Position numbers and translations under genes: made by a program. 64,000 nucleotides of DNA from Gemmata massiliana (GTDB lineage Bacteria > Planctomycetota > Planctomycetia > Gemmatales > Gemmataceae). The DNA is taken from contig NZ_LR593886.1 of NCBI RefSeq assembly GCF_901538265.1, positions 2,108,001-2,172,000 of the forward strand. The letters run 5' to 3'. A model generated the notes under the pieces. The model was not told where the DNA came from. It worked only from the letters and a program-made list of their open reading frames with translations, and made no database searches. Shown one piece after another: positions 26,971-60,292 of this stretch; positions within the stretch are counted from its first letter, which is position 1, and each line of letters opens with the position of its first letter.

Positions 26971-27103
26971 CGACAGTAAATCCTCCAATGTGGTTCGATC
27001 CCTGTACCCCATGAGCTCGCTCTGAAACAAACTGTGTCCCGAGGCCCGACGGTTCCCGGTGCCCGCCCCCCGAAATCAGCGCCGGAAGGATCCGCGGCCC
27101 CGG

Positions 27104-28696
27104 TCACCCAGCCCAGGTCGCGCCGACCTTCACCTCGACCTCGACGGGTACGGGATCGATGAGCGGGGCCATCCCATCGATCATGCAGCCAGACAACCAC
27201 GTCTTCGCGGCTTCGCGCTCGGGTTCGGGAACCTCGAGCACGATCTCGTCGTGGACCGCCAGCACGACCTCGGCATTCGGGCACTGGTCCCGGCACTCCC
27301 ACAACAGCGCCAGGGCGCGCTTGAGCCCGTCCCCGCCGGTACCCTGCACGACGTAATTCGCCTTGGCCCCGAAGAACTGGTCCGGCTCGACCCCGATCCG
27401 GCGCCCGCCGAGCGTTCGCACCTCGGTGGCGCGGTCGCGCTTCAATCGGTTGTGCCACGCGCGGACGGCGGGGAACTGGGCGAAGAACGCGTCCAAGAAC
27501 CCGCGCGCCTGGTCCTCGGTCATGTCCTTGCCGTAGTCGGCCTGGGCCTTGAGGCGTAGGGACCGGGGGCCGAGCCCGTAAATGGCCCCGAAGTTGACCG
27601 GCTTGGCCATCTGCCGGGCTTCCTTGGTGACCACATCGACCTGGGAGCCCAGGAACCGGGCCGCGGTGAGGGTGTGCAGGTCCTCGCCTTCTGATAGGCC
27701 CCCAGCATGCGCGTCGCCGGTCACCTTGGCCGCGATGCGGAGCTCGATCTGACTGAAGTCGCACTTGACCAGCACGTGCCCGGAGCGGGCGGTGAAGCAC
27801 CGCCGGTACCGCGGGTTCCGAGGGAGCTGCTGCAAGTTGGGCTCCTTACAGCTCATGCGCCCGGTCTTCGCCTGGCACGGGTTCCACGACGCGCGCACGC
27901 GCCCGTCGGTCACGTGCTCCGCGACCCACTCGCGCCCGTACGTGCCCGCGCGCTTGGCGGCCTCGCGGTACTCGAGCAGGAGCCGGGCGAGCGGGTGGGC
28001 GATCCCGGCGAGCGTTTCCTCCTTGGTGTCGGGGAGCGCGATCCCGACCGCTTCGAACGCCGCGGGGACGTCGACCGTGGTGCTGTTCCACGCCCCGAGC
28101 CCGGGCAGGCAGTTCGGGTTCGGGACCAGCGCGTCCATCTCGGTCGCGAGCGTGACCCGGCGTTCGGCCGCGGCGTCGGCCAGGGCCAACCACGTGCCCG
28201 TGTCGAACCCGACCCCGGTGGCGGCCATTCGGGCGACGGGCACCCCGCACCGCATCTCCAGGTCCAGGACCGCCGTGAGGTTGCGCGCGGCGGCCTTCGT
28301 GCGAAGTGTGTCGGCCAGGGGCACGAGCACCGCCGCGTCGGTCGCAGCATACTCCAGTTGTGCGCGTGGCAGCACCGGGCGGGACCACTCACCGGCTTGT
28401 TCGGTCTTGTCGAGTTCCCGGTTCATCTCCCGCTTGACGACCGAGGCGAGATCGTGATCGGCGCGCTCGCCGGCATAAACGACACGGGAAGCCAACGCGG
28501 TGTCGAACACGCGGGCCAGCGCGAACCCGAGCCGGGCCAGGAACGGGAGGTCGAAGGAGACGATGTTGTGCCCGACGAGCTCCTTCTCGGCCAGGACCGC
28601 GAACAGTGGGGCCAGTGCGGTCGCGGGGGCATCGAGCGCGAACAGGTCGACGAGGAACGTGCCGATCGAGGTGGCCAGTGACAGGAGCGCACCCGG
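27104..28696 (-). CDS. Family A DNA polymerase with 3'-5' exonuclease part (module A)
   Basis: The frame runs about 530 residues to a frameshift near 28696, beyond which the exonuclease motif I (GLDLETTGLNP) is found in the frame of the DUF3987 part; the two were evidently one protein. An isolated start could be the GTG at 28510. Exonuclease motif II is GHNIVSFDLPFL and motif III YAATDAAVLVPL. Polymerase motifs: A VKCDFSQIELRIAA, B RQMAKPVNFGAIYGLG, C VLAVHDEIVLEV. There is no 5' nuclease domain, as in phage-type PolA. It replicates the element's DNA. Similar throughout to 42415-44181 in module B. Confidence 0.88.
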   Translation of the reverse strand, partial: PGALLSLATSIGTFLVDLFALDAPATALAPLFAVLAEKELVGHNIVSFDLPFLARLGFALARVFDTALASRVVYAGERADHDLASVVKREMNRELDKTEQAGEWSRPVLPRAQLEYAATDAAVLVPLADTLRTKAAARNLTAVLDLEMRCGVPVARMAATGVGFDTGTWLALADAAAERRVTLATEMDALVPNPNCLPGLGAWNSTTVDVPAAFEAVGIALPDTKEETLAGIAHPLARLLLEYREAAKRAGTYGREWVAEHVTDGRVRASWNPCQAKTGRMSCKEPNLQQLPRNPRYRRCFTARSGHVLVKCDFSQIELRIAAKVTGDAHAGGLSEGEDLHTLTAARFLGSQVDVVTKEARQMAKPVNFGAIYGLGPRSLRLKAQADYGKDMTEDQARGFLDAFFAQFPAVRAWHNRLKRDRATEVRTLGGRRIGVEPDQFFGAKANYVVQGTGGDGLKRALALLWECRDQCPNAEVVLAVHDEIVLEVPEPEREAAKTWLSGCMIDGMAPLIDPVPVEVEVKVGATWAG

Positions 28697-30774
28697 TCTC
28701 GGACCGGGTTGAGACCCGTCGTTTCCAGATCCAAGCCGACCGGCCCGACCTCCCCTTTAATCAGGGCAACGAGGTGAGCCAAGCCGGCCGCGTTACGGAC
28801 GAGCGCGTGCGCGTCGGGTTCCCCGGGGCGCACGACACTCGGTACCTCCGCCGCACGACACTCGGGAGTGGCACCGACGACGGGCGGCGCGGGCTCGTTT
28901 TGTTCCTCATGGACTTGCACCCCGCACGACACTTCAGACACTCGCCCCGCGCCCGGCGGGGCGCCTGGACCACATGTCCTCGCGGGATCAGCACTTGCGT
29001 CGGCGGAACCGGTGGCGTCGCCCGGCGGTTCTGCGGGCGCATCGGGGCGCGTGTCGTGCGGTTCCGTACCGCGCTCGGGTGCGCCCGGCCCGTCGGGCGC
29101 GGGTCGAGTGTCTGAAGTGTCGTGCGGCGTGCACGGGACAAAGAACCGGACCCGGTGGCCCCCGTGTTGGGGCACCGGGCCGTCCTCCCAGCGCCCCAAC
29201 CCGAGCGCGACCAGGGACTCCAGGGCCGCTTCGGCGGCGCCCGAGGTCCGGTACTTCCGGTTGTTCGACTTCTGCAGGTGCCGTGCGGTCAGGCGCCCGC
29301 CGTGGCGCGCCGCCAGGCCCCCGACGACCTCGACCAGTTTGCGCGCCTCCTGTTCCCCGGCTTCTTCGCCGAGCATCTGGTACACGCGCTCGGCCTCGGC
29401 CGTGAACCACTCGGCCAGTGCGATGCCCGCGCGCACGCTCGCGAGGCCGACGGGTTCCCGCGCGCCCGACCCGGCCGCCTGGCACACGTGGTGCACCAGG
29501 GCCAGGCGCGCCGCGTACCCCTCCAATTTCGAGAACGCGGCGGCCAGTTCGCCCTCGGTTTCGGACTGCTTGAGCGCGAACCGGGCGTAGAATCGGACCC
29601 ACTCGGCCTTGGCGTCCGGTGCCAACCCGAGCGCCACCGGGTACGAGTTCCCGTCGGCGTCGGCGCCGGGTTCCAGTTCGGCCAGTTCTTTGACGAGCCG
29701 GTGGTACCCGGCTTCGGCGTTTGCGTCGATGTCGTCCTCGGTCCACTCCTTGGGCCGGCGCGGCGGGTACGCGAACAGGAGCCGGGCGGGCACCCCGGCG
29801 CTGAAGTGCTGGGGCGTCAGGGCCAGGCGCAGGACCCCGGGCTGGATCCCGCCGCACAGGCTGACCCCGACGTCGGGGACGAAGGTGGTCCGGGGCTCGC
29901 CCGTCTTGCGGTTCACGCACAGGGTCCCGAGCCCGTGGAGCTCGAGCCAGTTGACCAGGTCCGATCCGCCCTTGGCCTTGTACTGGTTGAACGAGGTGAG
30001 CCACCCGGACAGCTCGTCCCGGCCCACCAGGAACCGGGTCCGGTTGTCCACCAGTAACCCACCGAGGGCCTCGATCGTGGTGTCCCGGGAGTAGATCCGG
30101 GTGCACACGGGCGGCTCGGGCGGCCCCCCGGGATCGTCGTCCTTGCTCCGGCGCTTCTGCCGCTCGTAGTCGCGGAGCTCGGCCCGATGGGCCTCGGCCC
30201 GGTGCGCCTTGAGGTGCGCGGCCTGCATGGCGACCACGGGCGACGGCGCGCTTGTACGGCGGGGTCTTGAGGGTGCCCGAGTCCCCGACGACCGCGGCCC
30301 AGATCATGGCGGGCTCGGCCCACGAGTTCTTGAGGCGGACCGTGCACGTGGCCCCGATCATCCCGCTGCACACGGCCAGGGCCGGGAGCGCCACGAACGT
30401 GGGGTCGCACCGCATGGCCCGGGACACGGTGAGGACGAGCGCACCGAGTTGGTCCGGGTCGTGCGCCCGCTGCACCCGAACGCGGCGCGGGTGGCGGGGA
30501 GCAGGTACGGTCCCGCGGCGACCGCTTCGGCGCAGTCGAGGTCCACGTCGGCCAGGTGGCCCGAGACCGGGCCCAGCTTGATCCCGAGGTTGCGCCCGAC
30601 GAAGTGCTCGGGCGCGGCACTACCGTCGGGCCAGAACCGGGCGTCCGGATGCTTGCCGGGTTTGGCACAATCGGCCCTCCCGCACGAGCACGTGCCCGCG
30701 TCGGGGGCGGGCCGGTGTACCGGGACCATGCACCACCCGCGTGCCCGGTACCGCTCGACGGCTTCGGTGATCAC
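28697..30774 (-). pseudogene. PrimPol remnant-DUF3987 primase/helicase, frameshifted (module A)
   Basis: Starts at a GTG at 30774 with a bifunctional primase-polymerase N-terminus: VERYRARGWCMVPVHRP, CSCGRADCAKPGKHPDARFW, GNLGIKLGPVSGHLADVDLD-like (catalytic DVDLD). That domain stops abruptly near 30470, so most of PrimPol is deleted. A frame change leads to the DUF3987 part: CDPTFVALPALAVCSGMIGA, VVGDSGTLKTPPYKRA (P-loop-like), then after another shift near 30240 IYSRDTTIEALGGLLVDNRT, FLVGRDELSGWLTSFNQYKA (Walker B-like) and SAGVPARLLFAYPPRRPKEW. A Pro/Thr/Asp-rich linker containing the inverted repeat 28916-29133 joins it to the polymerase exonuclease motif GLDLETTGLNP. Module B has the same order. 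Confidence 0.82.
28916..29133. repeat. Inverted repeat with internal direct repeat in the replication-gene linker (module A)
   Basis: The arms 28916-28944 and 29105-29133 are 29 bp with one mismatch (core CGCACGACACTTCAGACACT). Similarity continues inward for about 15 more bp, giving arms of about 44 bp with three mismatches. A direct partial copy GTGTCGTGCGG occurs at 29051 and 29117, 66 bp apart and so in phase with codons. The whole lies in the coding sequence between DUF3987 and the polymerase; the arms encode PHDTSDTRPAP and, on return, GRVSEVSCGVQ. Module B has an equivalent structure of different sequence at 42112-42327. Candidate replication origin or mRNA structure. Confidence 0.85.
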
Positions 30775-34735: not shown

Positions 34736-37600
34736 ATGCCGACCTACAGCAGCCGTTCGGTTCGCAAGAGCTTGCTCACCCGCCTGGGGCTCGAGCGGAT
34801 GGAAGAACGGGACGTGCCAGCGTTCTACCTCGTGACCGGGACCACGGACATCGTCGCGCCGACCCCGACCCTCGGGGACGGGTCGGCGGGCGCCCCGATC
34901 CAGGTCGCCAGCCTTCGCTCCGCGGTCGCGCTCGCCAACGCGAGCTCGGATAACGACACCATTATCCTTCAGGCCGACAGCACGTACCAACTCACCGATA
35001 CTACGAATTACAACCTGGAGATCGCCGACGCATCCACCGCAGGGGCGCTCACCATCACGGGGGCCGGGGAGACGGCGACGACGATCCAGGCCGCCTTCGC
35101 CGCGCCGGGGTCGGAAGGCCGGATCTTCAGCGTTCTGGACGGGGCCAATCTGACGCTTTCCAACGTGACGCTGACCGGTGGGAACGCGAGCGCCGGCGGC
35201 GCGATTCTAGCTTACGCGGAGACGACGACGACGCAGTTGACGCTCTCCAACGTCACCCTCACCGGCAACAGCGCGAGCTCGTACGGTGGGGCGATCAGGC
35301 TTAGTGCATTCGACGGCGGTGCCATCGCTGCCGTTATGACAGACGTTACGCTGACCAACAACACCGCGGGCTACGGCGGGGCGCTCGCCGTACTCGGGTA
35401 CGGGGGGGCCGTCACCGCCACTCTGACGAACGCCACCATGTCCGGCAACACGGCGACCGTTTACGGCGGCGCGGTCACGATGTTCGCGTTCGGGTACGGG
35501 GGTGTCTTCACCTCCACCCTGACGAACTCTACGGTATCGGAGAACACCGCCGTGTACGGCGGCGGCGGGATTTCCGTGAGCGGGTACGGGGGTATTACCC
35601 TGACGAACTCCACGGTCTCGGGGAACACCGCTATGTACGGCAGCGGTGGCGGGATTGCGGCGGTGTACGGCGGAACGCTGGCCATCAGCAACAGCACGAT
35701 CTCCGGCAACACCGCGGCCGCGTACGGCGGTGGGATTGCTGTGATCCAAGACTTATACGATGGGGAACTGACCGTCACTAACAGCACGGTGAGCGGAAAT
35801 AGGGCCGGTTTCGGCGGTGGGGTCGCGATCCTTTTTGACGCCGGCGGGGCGAACACGCTGACCAACAGCACGGTGAGCGGGAACATCGGCACGTACGGCG
35901 GCGGGGGCCTGTTACTCAGTAGCTCCCAACCCGCGGCGCCGCTCGATCTCGTGAACAGCACAGTGAGCGGAAACAGTACTAACAGTTACGGCGGCGGGAT
36001 TGCCTTCAACGGTGGTGACGGGTCGCTCCTCAACTCGACCGTGACCAGAAATTTGGGATACGGGGGCGGGGTCGCGGCGGGCTCGGGAACGGTCGAAATC
36101 CAGAACGCGATCGTGGCCGGCAACTTCGACCCGGCGGGGACCACCGCGGACGATCTCCGGGCGCACTCGGGCACCCCGTTTGTCGTCACTTACTCGCTCA
36201 TCGGAGCGACCGACGGCGCACCGCTAGACCCGACCAGCGCGAACAACCTGACCGGGACGGTCGCGAGTCCGCTCGACCCGCGGCTCGGGGCGCTGGCGAA
36301 CAACGGCGGACCGACCCGGACGCACGCCCTTCTGGCCAACAGCCCGGCCCGCAACACGGGCAACCCGAACTTCACCGCGCCCACCGTGGACCAGCGGGGG
36401 CAAGCCCGGGTACTCGACGGTCGGTTGGACGTCGGGGCGTTCGAGGCTCAAACGATCACCGTCGGCCCAGGCGTCTTCCCGACGAGCGCGGCCGGCCGCG
36501 CGTATACGGCGACGCTGACCGCGTCCGGCGCGAGCGGCCCGTTCGCGTACATCGTCACCGCCGGGGCGCTGCCCCCCGGCCTAACCCTGAGCCCGACCGG
36601 GGAACTGGCCGGCACCCCGACGGCGTCCGGGACGTACACGTTTACCGTTGGTGTGACCGGCGCGGCCGGGGCCGACGGGGCGCACGAGTTCTCCCTCACG
36701 GTCGCCGCGAGCGCCACGCCGCCCAAGTTCGTGTTGGGGGCCGGGAGCAACGGCCGTATCCAGATCGCCGGCGTCGCCGGCACTTCGATCCCGGCGTTTA
36801 ACGGGTTCCAGGGCGAGGTACGGGTGGCCACCGCGGATCTGAACGGCGATGGGGTTCTGGACGTCATCGCCGGGGCCGGCGCGGGTGCGTCCGGCGGGCA
36901 CGTGAAGGTGTTCGACGGGAGCACCGGGGCCGAGATCCGTTCGTTCTTCGCGTTCGGCGGATACACAGGCGGCGTGTACGTCAGCACCGGCGACATCAAC
37001 GGGGACGGCGTCGCCGACATCATCGTTGGGGCCGGCGCGGGTGCGTCCGGCGGGCACGTGAAGGTGTTCGACGGCAAGACCGGTGATCTGGTCCGCTCGT
37101 TCTTCGCGTTCGACGGGTTCGCCGGCGGCGCCCGGGTCGCGAGTGGTGACGTCAACGGGGACGGCGTCGCCGACATCATCGTCGGGGCCGGCGCGGGTGC
37201 GTCCGGCGGGCACGTGAAGGTGTTCGACGGCAAGACCGGTGATCTGGTCCGCTCGTTCTTCGCGTTCGCCGAGTTCGCCGGTGGCGTGTTCGTGGGAGCC
37301 GCTGACCTGGACGGGGACGGCACCGATGAGATTCTGGCTGGGGCGGACGCGGGGGCCGACCCACAGGTGCGGGTCTTCGGCGCTACGAACATGCCGCGGC
37401 TCAGCTTCCTGGCATACGCCCCGACGTTCCGCGGTGGAGTCCGGGTGGCGGGCTTCGACGTGAACGGCGACGGCTGGGACGAGATCATTACCGGCAGTGG
37501 GCCCGGGGCAGCGGGCGACGGGCGCGTGTTTGATTCGGCGGGGCAACTCCTCAGCTCCCAAGTCGTCCCCGATACGCTCACGGGCATCTTCGTCGGCTGA
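34736..37600 (+). CDS. Large surface protein: beta-helix (Pmp-like) repeats, Ig-like domain, FG-GAP/VCBS repeats
   Basis: 954 residues. The N-terminus SLLTRLGLERMEERDVPAFY is the planctomycete surface-protein leader (LE-x-x-E/R-R-x-VPA). Residues about 40-560 form a right-handed beta helix with many STVSGNTA-x-YGGGI repeats like polymorphic outer-membrane proteins, with a choice-of-anchor type ending (NNGGPTRTHALLANSPARNT, VDQRGQARV). A putative Ig/He_PIG domain follows (GPFAYIVTAGALPPGLTLSP). The C-terminal 240 residues are FG-GAP repeats with calcium-binding DLNGDGVLDV and DVNGDGVADI loops, the last two repeats nearly identical at DNA level. Predicted extracellular, for adhesion or as a wall component. 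Start ATG at 34736. Confidence 0.9.
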   Translation: MPTYSSRSVRKSLLTRLGLERMEERDVPAFYLVTGTTDIVAPTPTLGDGSAGAPIQVASLRSAVALANASSDNDTIILQADSTYQLTDTTNYNLEIADASTAGALTITGAGETATTIQAAFAAPGSEGRIFSVLDGANLTLSNVTLTGGNASAGGAILAYAETTTTQLTLSNVTLTGNSASSYGGAIRLSAFDGGAIAAVMTDVTLTNNTAGYGGALAVLGYGGAVTATLTNATMSGNTATVYGGAVTMFAFGYGGVFTSTLTNSTVSENTAVYGGGGISVSGYGGITLTNSTVSGNTAMYGSGGGIAAVYGGTLAISNSTISGNTAAAYGGGIAVIQDLYDGELTVTNSTVSGNRAGFGGGVAILFDAGGANTLTNSTVSGNIGTYGGGGLLLSSSQPAAPLDLVNSTVSGNSTNSYGGGIAFNGGDGSLLNSTVTRNLGYGGGVAAGSGTVEIQNAIVAGNFDPAGTTADDLRAHSGTPFVVTYSLIGATDGAPLDPTSANNLTGTVASPLDPRLGALANNGGPTRTHALLANSPARNTGNPNFTAPTVDQRGQARVLDGRLDVGAFEAQTITVGPGVFPTSAAGRAYTATLTASGASGPFAYIVTAGALPPGLTLSPTGELAGTPTASGTYTFTVGVTGAAGADGAHEFSLTVAASATPPKFVLGAGSNGRIQIAGVAGTSIPAFNGFQGEVRVATADLNGDGVLDVIAGAGAGASGGHVKVFDGSTGAEIRSFFAFGGYTGGVYVSTGDINGDGVADIIVGAGAGASGGHVKVFDGKTGDLVRSFFAFDGFAGGARVASGDVNGDGVADIIVGAGAGASGGHVKVFDGKTGDLVRSFFAFAEFAGGVFVGAADLDGDGTDEILAGADAGADPQVRVFGATNMPRLSFLAYAPTFRGGVRVAGFDVNGDGWDEIITGSGPGAAGDGRVFDSAGQLLSSQVVPDTLTGIFVG
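36997..37266 (+). repeat. Near-identical 156-bp coding repeats (FG-GAP)
   Basis: About 115 bp starting CAACGGGGACGGCGTCGCCG at 36997 recurs at 37153 with a single visible difference (T/C at 37026/37182). The period of 156 bp equals 52 codons. An earlier repeat around 36841 is similar but more diverged. The near identity indicates recent duplication or gene conversion of an FG-GAP unit. Confidence 0.85.
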
Positions 37601-37922
37601 TATCGCTCCGACGGGCGGCGCGGATTCGCACGTACCGCCCGTTGATAGCGCGGTTTGGTTTTCTGCGCCCCGGCGACGGGATTTTTCGTGCGCGTTTGCA
37701 GAATTCGGTTCGGGGTGCGAGGCGAACCCGGTGTTAACTGCTGTGTTGGTCTCGGCGAGACTCTGAGACTTTTCTGGAGAGAAATTCGGGGTCCGAGACG
37801 AAACGCTAGGGTTCGGCTCGCACCCCGAGATGTCTCGCTCGAACCCGAGATTTTTGCCGCAATCGGAATATGGGCCAAAGTGCCTGAAAACGTGCAGAAA
37901 ATGACAGCAGCCGGGAGCACTC
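37601..37922. other. Intergenic region after surface-protein gene
   Basis: About 320 bp. A stem ACGGGCGG / CCGCCCGT at roughly 37612-37643 could terminate transcription of the surface-protein gene. Nothing else is recognised before the insertion-sequence end at 37923. The missing 5' part of the GT87 fragment on the other side of the element is not here. Confidence 0.45.
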
Positions 37923-39174
37923 CAGTAGTTTCAAGGCGTTACCGCGCGTGTAAGTGTATTGTGGGTCAGTGTGATACATCGTGTGCGTGGGTATCGTGAG
38001 CGGATCCGTTGTGTGAGCCAGTCGAGCATCTCGGCCAGCGGGAGTTCATGCACCCACGCATTCCGGTTCTGGGCGCGTGCGATCCGGAGTGCCAAGCACA
38101 CCCACACCTGGCGCAACAGCAACGCCACACCCTCCAGTAACAACCGGTACTCGGGGTTGGTGCTGGTGGTCCACCCGCGGGCCTGGTTCTTCTGCCGGTA
38201 ACTGGTTTCGATCCCGAACCGCTCCCGGTACCGGCGCCGCCCGAGCCACGCGCGCTTCGCCTCGGATACGGCCCCCGCATCACCCCAACCCGAGAACGCA
38301 TATACCCGCGCGTGCGATTCACCCGGGCGGCGCCACACGAGCACCCGGGTGGACACCGACCGGCGCGTCTTCTCGGTCACCCATTCCATCGTGGCGACGG
38401 TGCCCGACGGCGTGGTGTAGCACTCGTTGCGCCGGTTCATGCCTTTCCCCTTCTTGCGGATCGGCACCGCGTAGTACAGATCCCATTGCTGCAACAGCAG
38501 CAGCGCGTCCCCGCTGTCGAACCCGGCGTCCAGCACCACTCCACCAACCGTGAGCCCACGAGCCGCCACGTGGTCCAGCAGCGCTCGTACCTGCTGATGT
38601 GGCTTGTCCCCTTTGTGCACCGTGACCAACCCGACCGTGTATCGCCGGTGCTTGTGGATCAGGACACACGTGGCGTAGGCGTGGAAGAACGAGGTCCCGG
38701 CCTTCTTGGGTCCGCCGATGATCCCCGGGGTCGAGCGGTCCCCGTAGAACGGCACGTAATGCACGTCGATGGCGCACGTCCACCGGCGCCTCCGGTCCCG
38801 GCGCGTGAACCGGGCCACGTCATGAAGGGCATCAACCAACCGGGCCGTGAGGTGGTCCTCGGAGCCCAGGTTCGCACGAACGCCCTGTCGCGCGGTCTCG
38901 TGCGAGAAGTGGAAGTACCGGGTCGCCACCGCGAACAGGGTTCGCGTGGTGCTCGCGACCAGCAGTATCAGGTCGAACAACTGGGTGCTCGTGATCGACG
39001 TCTTGTAGTCGGTCCAATCGAGGGTCCGTTCCAAGGGCCGGCGCGTCAGCGCGTGGACCACCGCCGGGGTGATCGTAGAGTAACCACGTCGCATGGGAGG
39101 TTCCCGTTCAAGTGCCTGAGAACCTTGAACTTAGGAACTCCCATGCGGCACTGCCAAATCCCTTGAAACTACTG
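37923..39174 (-). mobile_element. IS4-superfamily (ISH3-like) insertion sequence
   Basis: 1252 bp. Terminal inverted repeats CAGTAGTTTCAAGG at 37923-37936 and its complement at 39161-39174. One transposase gene fills the element. No target duplication is visible: CACTC on the left does not match TTTCG on the right. This, together with the truncated GT87 gene starting exactly at 39175, suggests a deletion or recombination at the element end. Confidence 0.8.
37931..39094 (-). CDS. IS4-superfamily (ISH3-like) transposase
   Basis: 387 residues, intact. DDE motifs: AIDVHYVPFYGDRSTPGIIG (first Asp, with D-x-H-Y-V-P-x-x-G typical of ISH3-like enzymes), GGVVLDAGFDSGDALLLL (second Asp), and RERFGIETSYRQKNQARGWT (Y-x-x-x-F-x-I-E-x-x-Y-R-Q signature with catalytic Glu). 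The C-terminal helix region LLLEGVALLLRQVWVCLALR is as in the family. Start near 39094 (MRRGYSTITPAVVHALTRRP). Confidence 0.85.
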   Translation of the reverse strand: MRRGYSTITPAVVHALTRRPLERTLDWTDYKTSITSTQLFDLILLVASTTRTLFAVATRYFHFSHETARQGVRANLGSEDHLTARLVDALHDVARFTRRDRRRRWTCAIDVHYVPFYGDRSTPGIIGGPKKAGTSFFHAYATCVLIHKHRRYTVGLVTVHKGDKPHQQVRALLDHVAARGLTVGGVVLDAGFDSGDALLLLQQWDLYYAVPIRKKGKGMNRRNECYTTPSGTVATMEWVTEKTRRSVSTRVLVWRRPGESHARVYAFSGWGDAGAVSEAKRAWLGRRRYRERFGIETSYRQKNQARGWTTSTNPEYRLLLEGVALLLRQVWVCLALRIARAQNRNAWVHELPLAEMLDWLTQRIRSRYPRTRCITLTHNTLTRAVTP

Positions 39175-39485
39175 TTTCGCTTACGGTTGTAGCGATGCTG
39201 TTGCTCTCGCCGATCTGCTGGGTCGATTACTGTTTGATGCTCGTCTTACCCATCGCTTGGCTCTGGTGCCGCGTGCCGAGGATCTGGTTCCGGCTCGTAC
39301 TTGTAGCCATCCTGCTACCGCTTTGGCCGCCGTGGGACGCGGTCTATTACGCCGGCACGGGCTTCGATAGTAGTCGGCTGGCGGCGTTTCTACAGAAGCG
39401 GGTTGCGACCCCGAGAGAGGCCCTGACCCTGCTATCGTACCAGACCTACGCCCTCCTCGTCCTCTTCGGGGTTCAGACCGTGCTG
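39175..39485 (+). pseudogene. GT87/DUF2029-like membrane mannosyltransferase, C-terminal fragment
   Basis: About 103 codons between two insertion sequences. It opens directly at the left element's end with VVAMLLLSPICWVDYCLMLV and LPIAWLWCRV, matching the LLLSPxSWxHY motif and membrane helices near the C-terminus of GT87 (DUF2029) glycosyltransferases, then RLVLVAILLPLWPPWD and LLSYQTYALLVLFGVQTVL. Both ends are replaced by insertion sequence. It cannot be functional. Confidence 0.65.
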
Positions 39486-40470
39486 TGCTCTGTTGAATCC
39501 ATCGGCGGTGGCAAGCCTCTAAACTGGTATGAAGACCTCAACCCCAATGAGCAAATCCCCGCGAGCCGTTGCCAAGGAGGCTTTCCGCTTGGCGAAAGAG
39601 GGTCTGGAGACGTACTCGTCAGCACGCAGTCGCAAGGACTTCACCCAGCACCAGTTGTTCGCCGTCCTCGCTCTCAAGACGTTCTTCAAGACCGACTACC
39701 GCGGCATCGCCCAGCTCCTCACCGACTTCGCCGAGCTGCGCGAGGAACTCGGACTGACCAAGGTTCCCCACTACTCCACCCTCTGCTACGCCGCCGGACG
39801 GCTGTTAAAAAGGGGGAGGTCGTTTGCCTCCTCGTGTGTGCCACCACGTCCGCAACCGAACGCGGCCTGATTGGTGACAAGCCGACCGCGGCCGTGGACG
39901 GCACGGGTTTGGAAAGTCGGCACACCTCGCGATACTTCTTCGAGCGGGCCGGACGCAAGCACACCTCTCGACTCTGGACCAAGCTCACCGTCGCCTGCGA
40001 CACCAAGAGCCATTTCTTTGCCGGGGCCACCGTCACCACAGGCCCGAGTAACGACTCGCCTCAGTTCCGCCCGGTCCTACTCCAGGCATCGTTGGCCGTG
40101 AGATGGGATCGGGTGTTGGCCGACTCCGCGTTCGACAGCGAGGCCCACCACGCCTACGCCCGAGAGGACCGGGGCATCCGGTCGTCGGTCATCCCACTGA
40201 ACCGCCGCAACCAGGGCCGGAAGTGGCCCAAGACCACCTATCGGCGTCAGATGGTCAAGCGATTCCGGAAGAAACGTCGTGGGAGCCAACACAAGCGAGT
40301 CTATGGCCAGAGGTGGCAAGCGGAGTCTGCGTTCAGCCGACACAAACGTCGGCTCGGTAGTTCACTCGGTGGTCGTTCCGATGCCTCACGAGAGCGAGAA
40401 TGTCGGCTTCGAGTGCTAACACACAACATCATGCTGCTTGCTGCCACTGGATAATGGTTTCAACAGAGCA
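39486..40470 (+). mobile_element. IS4/IS5-superfamily insertion sequence with frameshifted transposase
   Basis: 985 bp. Inverted ends of 17 bp with one mismatch: TGCTCTGTTGAATCCAT at 39486-39502 and the complement of TGCTCTGTTGAAACCAT at 40454-40470. No clear target duplication. It cuts the GT87 fragment on the left and lies at the beginning of the phage-like module B on the right, where the usual PrimPol domain of the replication gene is missing. Confidence 0.75.
39529..40454 (+). pseudogene. IS4/IS5-superfamily transposase, one frameshift
   Basis: The first frame (39529-39810) reads KSPRAVAKEAFRLAKEGLET and HQLFAVLALKTFFKTDYRGI, then HYSTLCYAAGRLLK. After a shift in the A run near 39810 it continues GDKPTAAVDGTGLESRHTSR (first Asp), LADSAFDSEAHHAYA (second Asp) and YGQRWQAESAFSRHKRRLGS (catalytic Glu, in the family's Y-x-x-R-W-x-x-E-x-x-F-S-x-x-K-R pattern). 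Total length about 308 residues if repaired. The shift is in a homopolymer, so programmed frameshifting, usual in some IS families, is an alternative to inactivation. Confidence 0.75.
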
Positions 40471-40477
40471 ACGAGCC

Positions 40478-42400
40478 GTGTGTGCAGCCGCTCGCGACGA
40501 AGAGGTCGAGCACCGGGGCCGCGACGTTCACGACACCAACGAGAAGTTGCAGTGCGGGGAGGCCGTCACCGGCCTCCCCGCACTGCTGAAGGAACTCGGC
40601 GAGAACGGGCGCGCGATTCTCAGCGCCGTGACGGCGTGGCTCGAGCTTCCCCAAAAGGAGCCGGACGGGCCGAAGGTCGCGTTCGGACGCCCGGCCCCAA
40701 AGGTACCACCCGCGCCGCCGTTCACCCCCTTACCCGAGTGGCGACCGTTCCCGGTCGATCTGCTCCCCGGAGCCGTCCGCGAGTTCGTTACGACGGTTTC
40801 GACGGCGATGCGGTGCGACCTGACTTACGTCGCCCTGCCCGCTCTGGCGGTGTGCTCCGGGATGATCGGGGCGACCCGCACGATCCGGCTGAAGAAGTCG
40901 TGGTCGGAGCCCGCCATGCTTTGGACCGCCGTGGTCGGCGAGTCGGGCACGCTCAAAACGCCGCCCTATAAACGTGCGATTGCTCCCGTGGTTGCGATGC
41001 AGACCGAGCAACTCCGGGGGTACAAGGTTGTTCACGAGCAGTACCGTGCCGACTTGCGCGAGTACGAGCGAGCCAAGCGCCGGGCCAAGGACGACGACCC
41101 GGGTGATCCGCCCGCCGAGCCGGTGTGCCCTCGGATTTATTCAAGGGACGTCACGGTCGAGGCCCTGGCCGGGATCTTGACCCACAACCGGACCCGTTTC
41201 CTCATAGGGCGGGACGAACTGTCCGGGTGGCTGGCGAGTTTTAATCAGTACAAGTCAAAAGGCGGATCCGACCTGGCGAACTGGCTGGAACTCCACGGGC
41301 TCGGCACCCTGAGCGTGGACCGCAAAACGGGTGAACAGAAGACGATTCTCGTGTCGGGGGTCGGGGTCAGTTTGTGTGGCGGCATACAGCCCGGGGTGCT
41401 CCGCGGCGCGCTCTCGGCCCAGCACTTTAGCGCGGGCATCCCGGCCCGCCTCCTGTTCGCGTACCCGCCCCGGCACCCGAAGCAGTGGACCGAGGACGAC
41501 CTCGACGAGCACGTTGAGGAGCGCTACACCCGACTCGTCCGCGCACTAGCGGAGTTGCAACCGAACACGGACGAGAGTGGCGAGCCGTACCCGGTCCCGC
41601 TCGGATTGGCCCCGGACGCGAAAGCCGAGTGGGTCCGATTCTACACCCGGTTCGCGCTCAAGCAGTCGGAAACCGAGGGCGAGCTGGCCGCGGCGTTCTC
41701 CAAGTTGGAGGGGTACGCCGCGCGCCTGGCGCTGGTGCACCACGTGTGCCTGTCGGTCGACGCGGGGCTCGAGGCCCGTGACCCGATCCCGCTCGCCAGC
41801 GTGCGGGCCGGGATCGCACTGGCCGAGTGGTTCGCGCACGAGGCTCAGCGCGTCTACCAGATGCTCCGGGAGGATCGCGGGAGCACGGAAGCCCGTGACC
41901 TGTTCGAGCGCGCCTGCCAGTTGGCCGCGCGCCACGGCGGGCGCGTCACGGCCCGGGAACTGGCCAAGTCGAACAAAATAAAGTACCCCCAGGCGGCGGC
42001 CGCCGAGGCCGCACTCGAAGGGCTGGTCGCTCAGGGACTGGGGGACTGGATCGATCTCGACACCGGCCCCAAGGGCGGGCGCCCGACGCACGGATTCGTG
42101 CCGCGTCTCTTAAGCGGCGAAACCGGCGAAACCCCCGAAACCCCTGATGCCCCGGACGACGATCCCCCTCCACCGCCAGGGCCTAGCGCCCCCCGAAGCG
42201 GCGAAACCCGCCCGCACCGACCGGCCCTCATGCCGGCGGAAACGACGCAAGTGACTGCGAATACAACACATCCGCCTCTAGCGACGTCCCACCAGCCGGG
42301 GTTTCGGGGGTTTCGCCGGTTTCGCCGAAGGCGAAAGAAACCCCACCGTCGGGTGAACAGCAAGGTTCTGCTCCGCACCGCGGGGGGGACGACCCGGTAG
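40478..42400 (+). CDS. DUF3987 primase/helicase-like replication protein (module B)
   Basis: About 640 residues from the GTG just after the insertion-sequence end; the first 70 residues are not family-like, and any PrimPol domain has been lost. DUF3987 core: LTYVALPALAVCSGMIGATR, VVGESGTLKTPPYKRAI (P-loop-like), IYSRDVTVEALAGILTHNRT, FLIGRDELSGWLASFNQYKS (Walker B-like), SAGIPARLLFAYPPRHPKQW, SKLEGYAARLALVHHVC. A C-terminal winged-helix-like part follows (HGGRVTARELAKSNKIKYPQ). The linker (SGETGETPETPDAPDDD) contains the inverted repeat 42112-42327. The frame leaves the polymerase reading frame between 42187 and 42400, so the gene was probably fused to 42415-44181 as in module A. Confidence 0.87.
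   Translation: MCAAARDEEVEHRGRDVHDTNEKLQCGEAVTGLPALLKELGENGRAILSAVTAWLELPQKEPDGPKVAFGRPAPKVPPAPPFTPLPEWRPFPVDLLPGAVREFVTTVSTAMRCDLTYVALPALAVCSGMIGATRTIRLKKSWSEPAMLWTAVVGESGTLKTPPYKRAIAPVVAMQTEQLRGYKVVHEQYRADLREYERAKRRAKDDDPGDPPAEPVCPRIYSRDVTVEALAGILTHNRTRFLIGRDELSGWLASFNQYKSKGGSDLANWLELHGLGTLSVDRKTGEQKTILVSGVGVSLCGGIQPGVLRGALSAQHFSAGIPARLLFAYPPRHPKQWTEDDLDEHVEERYTRLVRALAELQPNTDESGEPYPVPLGLAPDAKAEWVRFYTRFALKQSETEGELAAAFSKLEGYAARLALVHHVCLSVDAGLEARDPIPLASVRAGIALAEWFAHEAQRVYQMLREDRGSTEARDLFERACQLAARHGGRVTARELAKSNKIKYPQAAAAEAALEGLVAQGLGDWIDLDTGPKGGRPTHGFVPRLLSGETGETPETPDAPDDDPPPPPGPSAPRSGETRPHRPALMPAETTQVTANTTHPPLATSHQPGFRGFRRFRRRRKKPHRRVNSKVLLRTAGGTTR
42112..42327. repeat. Perfect 30-bp inverted repeat with direct repeat in replication-gene linker (module B)
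   Basis: Arms 42115-42144 and 42298-42327 are perfectly complementary over 30 bp (arm begins CGGCGAAACCGGCGAAACCC), spacer 153 bp. A 13-bp direct copy AAGCGGCGAAACC is at 42112 and 42196, 84 bp apart and so in codon phase; a third copy stands just after the polymerase stop at 44197. The arms encode SGETGETPETP and, on return, GVSGVSPVSP. Same location and layout as the module A structure at 28916-29133, but with unrelated nucleotide sequence. Candidate origin of replication inside the replication gene. Confidence 0.88.
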
Positions 42401-42414
42401 GGGTTTCGCCGCAC

Positions 42415-44181
42415 GTGGTGAAAACGGCGGCCGGGGTGGAGGTGATCGCCGCAGCGGTCGCAGAGTGGAGCGGCCCGGTTGCCCTCGAAACGACCGAGTT
42501 GGACCCGACCCGGGACCGGGTGCGCCTCGTGCAGATCGGGATCGGGGACGAGGTCGCACTCATCGACCTGTTCGCGCTCTCCGACCCGTCGGCGGACCTG
42601 GCCCCGTTGTTCGCCGCGCTCGCGGGCAAGGAGGTCGTCGGCCACAACGTACAGTTCGACCTGCGGATGCTCGCCCCGCTCGGGTTCGTGCCCGGTCGGG
42701 TGTACGACACGATGCTCGCCAGCAAGGTGCTCCACGCCGGCGGGCGCGAGGAAACCAACGCGCGCCTCAAGCACGGGCTGGCAGACGTGGCCGAGCGGGA
42801 ACTGGGGCGCGAACTCGACAAGGGCGAACAGGGGTCCGACTGGTCCGGGCAACTGAGCGCGAAGCAACTGGTGTACACGGCAACAGACGCCGCGGTGCTC
42901 CTCCCACTCGCGGCCGTACTCACGGAGCGGCTCGCGGCTGCGAAGTTGACCGAAACCGCGGATCGCGAGATGCGGGCGCTCCCGGGGATCGCGTGGGCGG
43001 AGCTGATCGCCGTTGACACGAGGGGCTGGCTCGCACTCGCCGCCGCGGCCGAAACCGAGCGGGCGAGTTTGGCGACCGCGATGGATACCACCGCCCCGAA
43101 CCCCGCCGGCCTACCCGGAATGGAAACGCGGAACTGGGACAGCCCGACCCAGGTGAAGGACGCGTTCGCGCAGGTGGGAGTAACAATCGGGGCGACCGAC
43201 GACGACACGCTCGCGGGGGTGCCTCACCCGCTCGCCGGGATGCTCTGTGATTACCGGGCCGCGGCCAAGCGGGTCGGAACCTACGGGCGCGCGTGGGTCG
43301 AGAAGCACGTCGGGGCGAACGATCTCGTGTTGCCGTCGTGGAACCAACTCGGGGCCGAGAGCGGGCGCATGAGCTGCTCCGACCCGAACCTGCAGCAGAT
43401 CCCGCGCGGGTCCGAGTACCGGCGTTGCTTCGTCGCCCGCCCGGGCCGTGTGTTGCTCAAGGCCGACTATTCGCAAGTCGAGTTGCGGATCGCCGCGAAG
43501 GTGGCGAACGAGGGGGTGATGATCGCCGCGTACCGAGACGGGCGCGACCTCCACACACTCACTGCGGCGCGGGTGCTCAATAAGCCCGAGGCCGACGTCA
43601 CAAAAGCCGACCGCCAGTTGGCGAAGGCCGTGAACTTCGGGTTGCTCTACGGCGTGGGGTGGCGGGGCCTGAAGCAGTACGCCCAGGCGAACTACGGGGT
43701 CGCACTGACTGATACCCAGGCCCGGGGGTACCGCGAGGCGTTCTTCCGAGCGTACCCGGCATTCCGGGCGTGGCACGCGCGAACCGAGGCGCACGTGAAA
43801 AAGCTGTTCGACGCGACCCTGGAGGGCGTTCACCCGGTTCATACGCTCGGCGGGCGCCGGCGCCTCCTGCCCGTGTCCAAGACGGGCGCCGACGGCACCC
43901 GGTACCCGAACAAGACGGACGCGCTGAACACCCCGGTTCAGGGGACCGGGGCGGACGGGCTCAAGGTCGCAATCGCGCTCTTGTGGGAGCGCAGGGACTG
44001 CTCCGGGGCACCAGTCCCGGTCATCTTCTGTCACGACGAAATCGTGCTGGAGGTGCCCGAGGCGCATGCGGAGCAGGGTGCGGACTGGTTGCGCGGGTGC
44101 ATGATCGAGGCCGTTGCCCCGCTCATCGACTCGGTACCGGTCGAGGTCGAGGTGACGACCGGGTGCCTCAGGTGCGGGTGA
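42415..44181 (+). CDS. Family A DNA polymerase (module B) with altered exonuclease motif I
   Basis: 588 residues. Exonuclease region: motif I reads GPVALETTELDP, two residues shorter than module A (GPVGLDLETTGLNP) and lacking the catalytic Asp; motif II GHNVQFDLRMLAPLG and motif III YTATDAAVLLPL are present. Polymerase motifs are complete: A LLKADYSQVELRIAAKV, B RQLAKAVNFGLLYGVG, C PVIFCHDEIVLEV. No 5' nuclease domain. The GTG at 42415 is the first start, but the frame is open from 42187 and continues the linker of DUF3987, so a fusion interrupted by a frameshift is likely. It replicates the element's DNA, probably without proofreading. Confidence 0.9.
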   Translation: MVKTAAGVEVIAAAVAEWSGPVALETTELDPTRDRVRLVQIGIGDEVALIDLFALSDPSADLAPLFAALAGKEVVGHNVQFDLRMLAPLGFVPGRVYDTMLASKVLHAGGREETNARLKHGLADVAERELGRELDKGEQGSDWSGQLSAKQLVYTATDAAVLLPLAAVLTERLAAAKLTETADREMRALPGIAWAELIAVDTRGWLALAAAAETERASLATAMDTTAPNPAGLPGMETRNWDSPTQVKDAFAQVGVTIGATDDDTLAGVPHPLAGMLCDYRAAAKRVGTYGRAWVEKHVGANDLVLPSWNQLGAESGRMSCSDPNLQQIPRGSEYRRCFVARPGRVLLKADYSQVELRIAAKVANEGVMIAAYRDGRDLHTLTAARVLNKPEADVTKADRQLAKAVNFGLLYGVGWRGLKQYAQANYGVALTDTQARGYREAFFRAYPAFRAWHARTEAHVKKLFDATLEGVHPVHTLGGRRRLLPVSKTGADGTRYPNKTDALNTPVQGTGADGLKVAIALLWERRDCSGAPVPVIFCHDEIVLEVPEAHAEQGADWLRGCMIEAVAPLIDSVPVEVEVTTGCLRCG

Positions 44182-44325
44182 GGAGCGAACGCGTGCAAGC
44201 GGCGAAACCCCGAAAACCCCGAAACCGGTCCGGTTCATGGTCCGGTGGGTCGCGGAACTGTGCGACGAGCGCCTGAACGGTCGGACGGGTTCCCCGGATA
44301 CCCGACACATTGAGGAGAACTGCCC

Positions 44326-59699: not shown

Positions 59700-60292
59700 T
59701 CCGATCCTAACGATTCGCGAGTTGGTTCGCGAGTCCCGATCGGCTGGCTGTATGGAGTGCCGGATGCCCCAGAAACCGCACGGACTTTTCCCAGATTCTG
59801 GGTGGCAGGCGGATGTTCCGTGAGGACGGATTGGCACCGGGTGCATTCGCCATCGTAATGTCGATGGCGAATGCACCCGGTTTCTACTGCACGGAAGCGG
59901 CGCCCCGCACTCACGCAGCCGGCGAGCGGCCTTTCCGTCTTACCTACAACCGCGCGTGCGCTGAGAACCAAGCACCCCAAAAACGCCGCACATCGCTCAT
60001 ACGCTCTGACAACAGCGGAAAGCCAATTTTGGGGTGTTTTGGCCCTTCGATGTGGGCCAAACGCTGGGATTTCAAGCACTTCACCGTTCGCCAAGTTTGC
60101 TGCCTCGCACTCGGACGTTCTGACAGTAACGGTTCGCTACAACTGCCCGTATTCCTAGCCGCAAACAACCTGAAACGCTTCATTCCAAAGGGTTTCACCG
60201 TTCGCTACATCTCGTATGTGCCCGTGAACGGCGGGGGGGTGCGAAGTGAAGTCGGTTAGGTTGCTCCTGATACCGCGAGAAGAGGCAGGTGG
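59700..60292. other. Intergenic region with hairpins
   Basis: About 590 bp between two leftward genes. It contains the 20-bp hairpin at 59836-59881, an ACCCCAAAA/TTTTGGGGT pair (about 59970 and 60029) and a TTTGGCCC/GGGCCAAA stem near 60038-60061. The heptamer-like CACCGTTCGC recurs near 60083 and 60197. Open frames here have no ribosome binding sites. I see no gene. Confidence 0.5.
59836..59881. terminator. Perfect 20-bp stem hairpin
   Basis: Arm ACCGGGTGCATTCGCCATCG (59836-59855), 6-base loop, perfectly complementary arm at 59862-59881, then TTTCTACT. Located about 160 bp upstream of the sigma-WD40 start and 410 bp downstream of the TIGR03067 gene. Leftward transcription would need a T run on the other side, which is absent, so an intrinsic terminator is only one reading; an operator or repetitive extragenic palindrome is the other. 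Confidence 0.5.

Follow-up and report, generated by a model that had tools for sequence, protein, structure and literature searches.

In a window of 64,000 nucleotides from Gemmata massiliana (contig NZ_LR593886.1, positions 2,108,001 to 2,172,000), two modules, A and B, each carry a DUF3987 gene followed by a DNA polymerase gene, with a block of repeats between them. Why should the DNA joining two replication enzymes contain long inverted arms, and why should the sequence of these arms differ from one module to the other? Judged from comparisons of sequences, the block is probably an iteron-type replication origin, or the initiator-binding core, of a mobile element, lying inside the element's own replication gene.

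The original prediction for module B described perfect 30-nt inverted arms, in-phase direct copies of AAGCGGCGAAACC at 42112 and 42196, a third copy at 44197 and a block of 216 nt, compared with 218 nt in module A. All of these were found: positions 42115-42144 are the reverse complement of 42298-42327, the first two direct copies are 84 nt apart, and the third lies shortly 3' of the polymerase stop, which ends at 44181. The proposed contrast between homologous flanks (DUF3987 71%, polymerase 55%) and unlike repeats in the two modules held as well. The forward cluster (42112-42144, plus strand) consists of three 9-nt units (CGGCGAAAC, CGGCGAAAC and CCCCGAAAC) and a C-rich tail; the arm at 42298-42327 is the reverse cluster (minus strand). 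Isolated single copies are present in forward orientation at 42196-42208 (AAGCGGCGAAACC, plus strand) and in reverse orientation at 42402-42410 (GGTTTCGCC, minus strand). The AT-richest 40 nt of the linker, 42241-42280 (50% AT versus 33% in the surrounding 12 kb), may be regarded, on weak evidence, as a candidate unwinding region. An extra tandem cluster is located 3' of the polymerase stop (44197-44229, plus strand); exact copies of the top 8-mer after the polymerase stop were found in none of the other modules scanned. The counterpart in module A, between DUF3987 and polymerase, extends over 28916-29133 on the minus strand, with arms at 28916-28963 and 29086-29133 and further partial copies at 28829, 28852 and 29049.

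Among perfect inverted arms not more than 400 nt apart in the window, those of module B ranked first by length and those of module A second (23 nt perfect; 48 nt at 92%), while block-shuffled versions of the window (n = 20) yielded at most 16 nt. The third longest, with 20-nt perfect arms and a 6-nt loop at 59836-59881, is possibly a terminator. In the whole genome (10,135,216 bases) the exact 13-mer AAGCGGCGAAACC occurred three times in forward orientation, always in module B; the same pattern read backwards, which served as control, occurred once. The top repeated 8-mer of the module B linker was present in six copies, a number found in none of 200 codon shuffles, and 35 control windows of the locus contained three copies at most. 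A chance origin of arms and repeats was ruled out by the shuffles.

The DUF3987 frame of module B (40361-42400, plus strand) matched profile PF13148 with 211.8 bits (cut-off 27), the helicase domain occupying about 40814-41860 on the same strand. Codons of a predicted winged-helix domain, which is putatively origin-binding, follow at 41876-42103 (plus strand, AlphaFold model) and stop a few codons 5' of the first repeat. Downstream, 42415-44181 (plus strand, first listed start GTG at 42415) encodes a 3'-5' exonuclease (PF01612, 79.4 bits, cut-off 23.6) and a family-A DNA polymerase (PF00476, 235.4 bits, cut-off 34.3). The AlphaFold model of the DUF3987 protein of the window was obtained with 11 sequences and had a mean pLDDT of 85. 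Its residues 22-384 were aligned with the MCM ATPase 6mii_E by VIA-align (Z 15.9, rmsd 4.0, 265 residues), and Foldseek matched the helicase part to 5v8f_4 (E 6.7e-5). By the predicted fold, the DUF3987 helicase core is MCM-like AAA+; DUF3987 was the sole Pfam match in this part, and the fold lists, which were headed by MCM, are compatible with SF3 too. A sequence search of the PDB gave no significant match, and a PADLOC search returned matches of polymerase or exonuclease type only. The C-terminal part is a winged helix in the model, and the first repeat starts a few codons past the end of its last strand; when this domain was modelled alone, winged-helix proteins, repressors included, were matched again.

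Homologues were searched at several levels. The DUF3987 query matched 41 of 95 genomes of the family, and the polymerase query at least 98 of 102 genomes of the order; the latter matches were mostly weak (about 30-38% identity) and presumably represent the ordinary chromosomal polymerase. Among 392 genomes of the phylum, 68 had a match to the DUF3987 profile; further matches were obtained at 17 loci in viral contigs, in 36 plasmid records and in four phage records. Paired modules, defined as DUF3987 and polymerase with a gap of <1200 nt, numbered 25 in the family, module A being counted in both of its copies. With a gap of <700 nt, helicase and polymerase shared one open frame without a stop in 16 of 23 modules. 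The fused protein of L080 (1486 residues) showed, in this order, matches to Prim-Pol (22.1 bits against a cut-off of 22.8), DUF3987, exonuclease and polymerase; that of L078 matched DUF3987, exonuclease and polymerase, without a Prim-Pol match.

The linker repeats differ from element to element: CGGCGAAAC in module B, TCCGACACTT in L078, TGTGACACG in L080, CCCGACTTG in L082 and GTGACGAAA in L094. Helicases and polymerases are roughly 50-77% identical among modules with such differing repeats. In 17 of the 25 paired linkers the repeated 8-mer count was above that of every control window of the same locus, and 16 of 25 were better than all 200 codon shuffles (module A counted twice). Eight linkers were equalled by one or more control windows, with clear failures in L087, L095 and the decayed L097. 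Among unpaired DUF3987 loci, nine of 34 exceeded all their own controls and 25 did not. A duplication-inversion private to this strain had been considered as a source of the arms; it was checked, and since homologues carry equally placed, element-specific repeats, the arms are not of that kind.

Forward copies occupied the first 145 nt or so and reverse copies the part beyond in 100 of 103 copies from 21 modules, where the first copy of each module set the forward direction, the rule was fixed after looking and module A was counted twice. GAC cores 3' of the winged helix were spaced by 7 nt in 22 and by 9 nt in 26 of 85 cases (controls 4% and 6%, respectively), and a 7-nt followed by a 9-nt spacing was seen in 9 of 46 regions just past the winged helix compared with 5 of 7380 control windows. 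Mean AT content was about 0.36-0.39 in the middle of the linker, 0.27-0.29 before it and 0.30-0.34 after it, with 0.40 in the first bin, so that the rise was modest; in several modules the AT-richest 40-mer was outside the middle. In L114 (G002:C109) the same type of repeat forms an expanded array 194-579 nt past the DUF3987 domain, with 20 copies of GTCTACGAA, eight forward and then 12 reverse, at spacings of about 16-39 nt.

Selection for structure or for element-specific recognition, and not for the peptide, had been suggested, and this is supported by third codon positions, by non-coding versions of the repeats and by the layout in homologues. Conservation of sites was tested with a motif-defined mask in two pairs, L089/L096 and L092/L084, and was clear both ways. 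Between L089 and L096, six GTGTGAC sites were identical at 42 of 42 positions, including 15 of 15 third codon positions, while outside these sites 172 of 279 positions and 54 of 92 third codon positions agreed. The comparison of L084 with L092 gave 42/42 in the sites versus 140/274 elsewhere, and with sites defined by L092 44/49 versus 138/281. With a k-mer mask the result was weaker: for synonymous sites of L089/L096 it was borderline in one direction (p 0.05) and clear in the opposite one (p 5e-10), and the same test was not significant for L087/L095 (0.18), L092/L084 (0.09) and L080/L098 (0.36). In the unfused L126 and L131 the repeats are situated in non-coding DNA 3' of the DUF3987 stop, at several unpaired loci this stop is inside or 5' of the arms, and module B and L094 keep an intact reverse cluster although it is not read in the frame of DUF3987 (by eye). 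The linker is proline- and acid-rich and poorly conserved as a peptide, which would suit a low-complexity spacer or a chance local duplication with no function of the DNA; but the peptides encoded by forward and reverse copies are unlike, two pairs show conservation at third codon positions, non-coding versions occur and many homologues have the layout in common, so that such an explanation is hardly credible.

A role of the arms in the mRNA, as a hairpin between helicase and polymerase that causes frameshifting, pausing or termination, is very unlikely, although the fold itself is strong: when the proposed check by RNA folding was carried out, the 216-nt RNA proved much more stable than its shuffled versions (z -9.0). 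Besides module B, some further modules also shift frame in or near the linker. Yet 16 of 23 paired modules have one frame throughout, which leaves no shift to be made, and a stem requires neither single copies nor tandem units; moreover, arms are found 3' of the stop in some plasmids and unfused modules, and the repeat sequence follows the winged helix. The single copies, the non-coding versions and the frames that run through in fused modules led to the rejection of an RNA hairpin as the main function. Element-specific recognition of DNA fits these sequences better than RNA structure or peptide.

For 47 DUF3987 genes, repeat similarity was correlated with winged-helix identity (0.366, p 0.001), compared with 0.098 (p 0.088) and 0.160 (p 0.007) for the helicase core. 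Partial Mantel tests gave 0.345 (p 0.0005) for repeats and winged helix given the core, with the highest value at residues 390-449, and -0.10 (p 0.95) for repeats and core given the winged helix. In 18 paired modules the value for the polymerase (0.223, p 0.052) nearly equalled that for the winged helix (0.247, p 0.039). The winged helix adjoins the repeats, and linkage alone could therefore yield part of the correlation. In three natural chimeras the repeats go with the helicase and not with the polymerase. The polymerase of L096, in the part read, is 94% similar to that of L095 from the same genome and its helicase is 94% L089-like; its repeats are those of L089 at the same positions, and high similarity to L095 begins only past the last repeat. 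In L079 and L084 the repeats likewise resemble those of the nearest relatives of the helicase and not those of the polymerase, although the winged helix of L084 is closest to that of L078 (66%), whose repeats differ.

By eye, certain residues appeared to go with certain repeats: xNQ with GTGAC, SNS with CCGAC and QQGCR with GTCTAC. The pairing of xNQ with GTGAC was seen by eye in 10 of 10 elements, and a Priestia plasmid with LQRGIR and GTCTAC agrees with the scheme. Automatic labels assigned TGAC to eight of 12 NQ elements, GGAC to L087, L091 and L095, and none to L160; L170 has QQGCR but was labelled CGAC, not GTCTAC. When the columns of 18 non-redundant elements were scanned without bias, the code column ranked third. 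The three-class column scan (mean z 0.42 for the winged helix versus 0.40 for the helicase) and the T-against-C scan (0.01 versus 0.20) did not favour the winged helix. In the model the code residue is situated in the turn between two helices, outside the classical recognition helix. A single-residue recognition code was rejected as proven because of the label exceptions and the weak unbiased scan; the pattern is suggestive only.

The repeats could also be a site for recombination or integration of the att, res or dif-like type. At several unfused loci, translated starts judged by eye point to an integrase-like frame downstream of the DUF3987 gene, and integrases are annotated on some plasmids. 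However, integration at this place would split the fused replicase, and because most fused modules (16 of 23) are in frame across the linker, such a site is disfavoured; repeats which follow the winged helix of the helicase also speak against it. The probability of this explanation seems minimal.

Of the 36 plasmid records, 14, mostly the smaller ones, were analysed. In 6 of 14 the 700-nt zone 3' of the DUF3987 match surpassed all other zones in repeats (combined rank p 2e-8 over the 14 plasmids); L204, L207, L210 and L212 showed no repeat signal by zone count, and in L204 and L207 inverted arms were seen by eye directly after the stop. A forward-then-reverse order was found with 4 and 4 copies in Microcoleus, with 5 and 3 in Streptomyces and with 7 and 4 on one plasmid from Crinalium; repeat orientations were mixed in the other Crinalium plasmid and in an Anabaena plasmid. 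All counted copies were inside the DUF3987 gene in 7 of 14 plasmids, all of them cyanobacterial (L206, L208, L209, L213, L214, L215 and L217), where the arrays are within a C-terminal extension of the gene. By ungapped arithmetic from match ends and copy positions, the first copy of these seven falls near query residue 457-469, the winged helix ending at 468, and that of the plasmids from Priestia, Bartonella and Streptomyces near 471-479. Another annotated initiator gene is present on some plasmids (L212, L216 and a short one in L210), and DUF3987 therefore need not be the sole replicon. Plasmid pAQ1 was dismissed as an experimental example, since its protein belongs to a different family (DUF3854).

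Several short direct repeats are thus found near the putative initiator gene, as in iteron origins. From the position and layout of the repeats, their element specificity, their conservation at the DNA level, their association with the winged helix and their presence on plasmids, we infer binding, helicase loading and origin activity. The winged-helix domain would bind the short repeats next to the codons which encode it. Helicase rings would then be loaded face to face by the forward and reverse clusters across the somewhat AT-richer middle, and the element's own polymerase would copy the DNA once it is opened. It is proposed that repeat sequence and winged helix change together, with layout and enzymes remaining constant, because each initiator reads its own repeats only.

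Alternatively, the repeats could be binding sites of the element's own initiator for regulation, i.e., autorepression, copy-number control or incompatibility, while replication starts elsewhere. Iteron arrays can work in copy control, winged-helix proteins commonly control transcription, the fold matches include repressors, and module B has the extra cluster 3' of its polymerase stop. Against this, the sites are 3' of the winged-helix codons and not at the start of the gene in fused, unfused and plasmid cases, and two opposed clusters resemble the organisation of PICI origins; regulation as the sole function is considered unlikely.

The frame of module B is split in the linker: the forward arms are read in the frame of DUF3987, the reverse arm in that of the polymerase, like in relatives (by eye), which places the frame change between about 42210 and 42298. 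A programmed frameshift was rejected since 16 of 23 paired modules do without one; the change may be a sequencing error or decay. A DDE transposase ORF (PF01609, 39195-40454) overlaps the 5' end of the DUF3987 frame, and in the fused relatives L078 and L080 the protein is longer at its N-terminus than in module B, by about 110 and 210 residues, respectively. Because of the frame break and the adjoining transposase ORF, the origin may be inactive in module B. In the same neighbourhood, a second DDE-type ORF (37931-39094, minus strand), which was below the Pfam cut-off, is flanked by imperfect 29-nt inverted arms (76%; 37908-39189), possibly an insertion sequence, and three tandem 156-nt repeats (36785-37356), 73-75% alike, are contained in an ORF of 954 residues (34736-37600). 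Module A is also frame-broken and exists in two copies, at 27059-30458 of the window and as L098 (G000:C1, about 2086424-2089824), which lie about 45 kb apart in opposite orientation and share 99.7% identity over 3401 nt; 2.4 kb of neighbouring DNA are duplicated as well, with 88% identity. A fourth module at 5.29 Mb has a stop inside the match and frame breaks and looks decayed. Since the copies in this genome are broken or decayed, the argument for an origin rests on the family and not on module B.

A wider reading may be offered tentatively, with a chance of being correct that is somewhat below even. The fused protein would be a near-complete replisome polypeptide, consisting of Prim-Pol, MCM-like helicase, origin-binding winged helix and proofreading family-A polymerase, with the origin in the codons which join winged helix to polymerase; in general, DUF3987 replicons across phyla would encode their origin right 3' of the winged-helix codons, with a protein-readable code (xNQ/GTGAC, QQGCR-type/GTCTAC). 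Should such a code be true, the pairing of initiator and origin could be predicted from sequence. If the origin reading itself is right, DUF3987 replicons, whose helicase is still named as of unknown function, would gain an origin, its layout and a likely reader protein. Coding DNA would bear a fast-changing binding array while the enzymes of the same gene stay conserved, and dozens of natural protein-DNA pairs could be used for the study of initiator specificity evolution and of the avoidance of plasmid incompatibility.

Several known systems can be compared. The alpha protein of P4, with ori and crr, is a helicase whose C-terminal winged helix binds short repeats; the helicase is a different one, and the P4 repeats are not between helicase and polymerase. 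The origin of phage lambda is located inside gene O, the coding sequence of its own initiator, and initiator-bound repeats within initiator coding DNA are the likeness to the modules described here, where binding is predicted. In lambda, four 19-bp iterons are bound by the initiator (PMC3985674). The lambda protein is unrelated, and no polymerase is part of it.

Kazlauskas et al. (2018) regarded DUF3987 as a predicted helicase and suggested that the WH domain may recognise the origin (PMC5862659). Their PrimPol-DUF3987 proteins are of the same class as those described here; neither an origin sequence nor a family-A fusion is named in the available sections of that paper. PICMI satellites were sought partly by means of a DUF3987-modelled primase, the deletion of which lowers copy number (PMC10803314). 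Our literature search, with subscription journals mostly outside its coverage, yielded no paper containing both DUF3987 and iteron.

Closer in arrangement is pRN1, where a 100-nt inverted structure 3' of the gene for primase, helicase and winged helix is required for replication, and where the origins of different plasmids agree in structure and place but not in sequence (PMC4234260). Here, too, an inverted-repeat structure is found just past the helicase-winged-helix codons, its sequence varying and its place being kept. In contrast, pRN1 has an SF3 helicase and a non-coding origin without polymerase fusion, and tandem iterons are not described in the accessible text of that report. The origins of PICIs, including SaPIs, are directly 3' of the initiator, with two sets of iterons around an AT-rich stretch (PMC6092414), and two opposed iteron sets right 3' of the winged-helix codons are the corresponding feature of the DUF3987 modules. 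These differ from the PICI systems, as far as described there, by a DUF3987 MCM-like initiator, by repeats which are often in coding DNA, by a polymerase which is often fused downstream and, in fused modules, by iteron sets within the gene and not after it. What is new, compared with these systems, is the placement of the putative origin between the helicase and the polymerase of one polypeptide.
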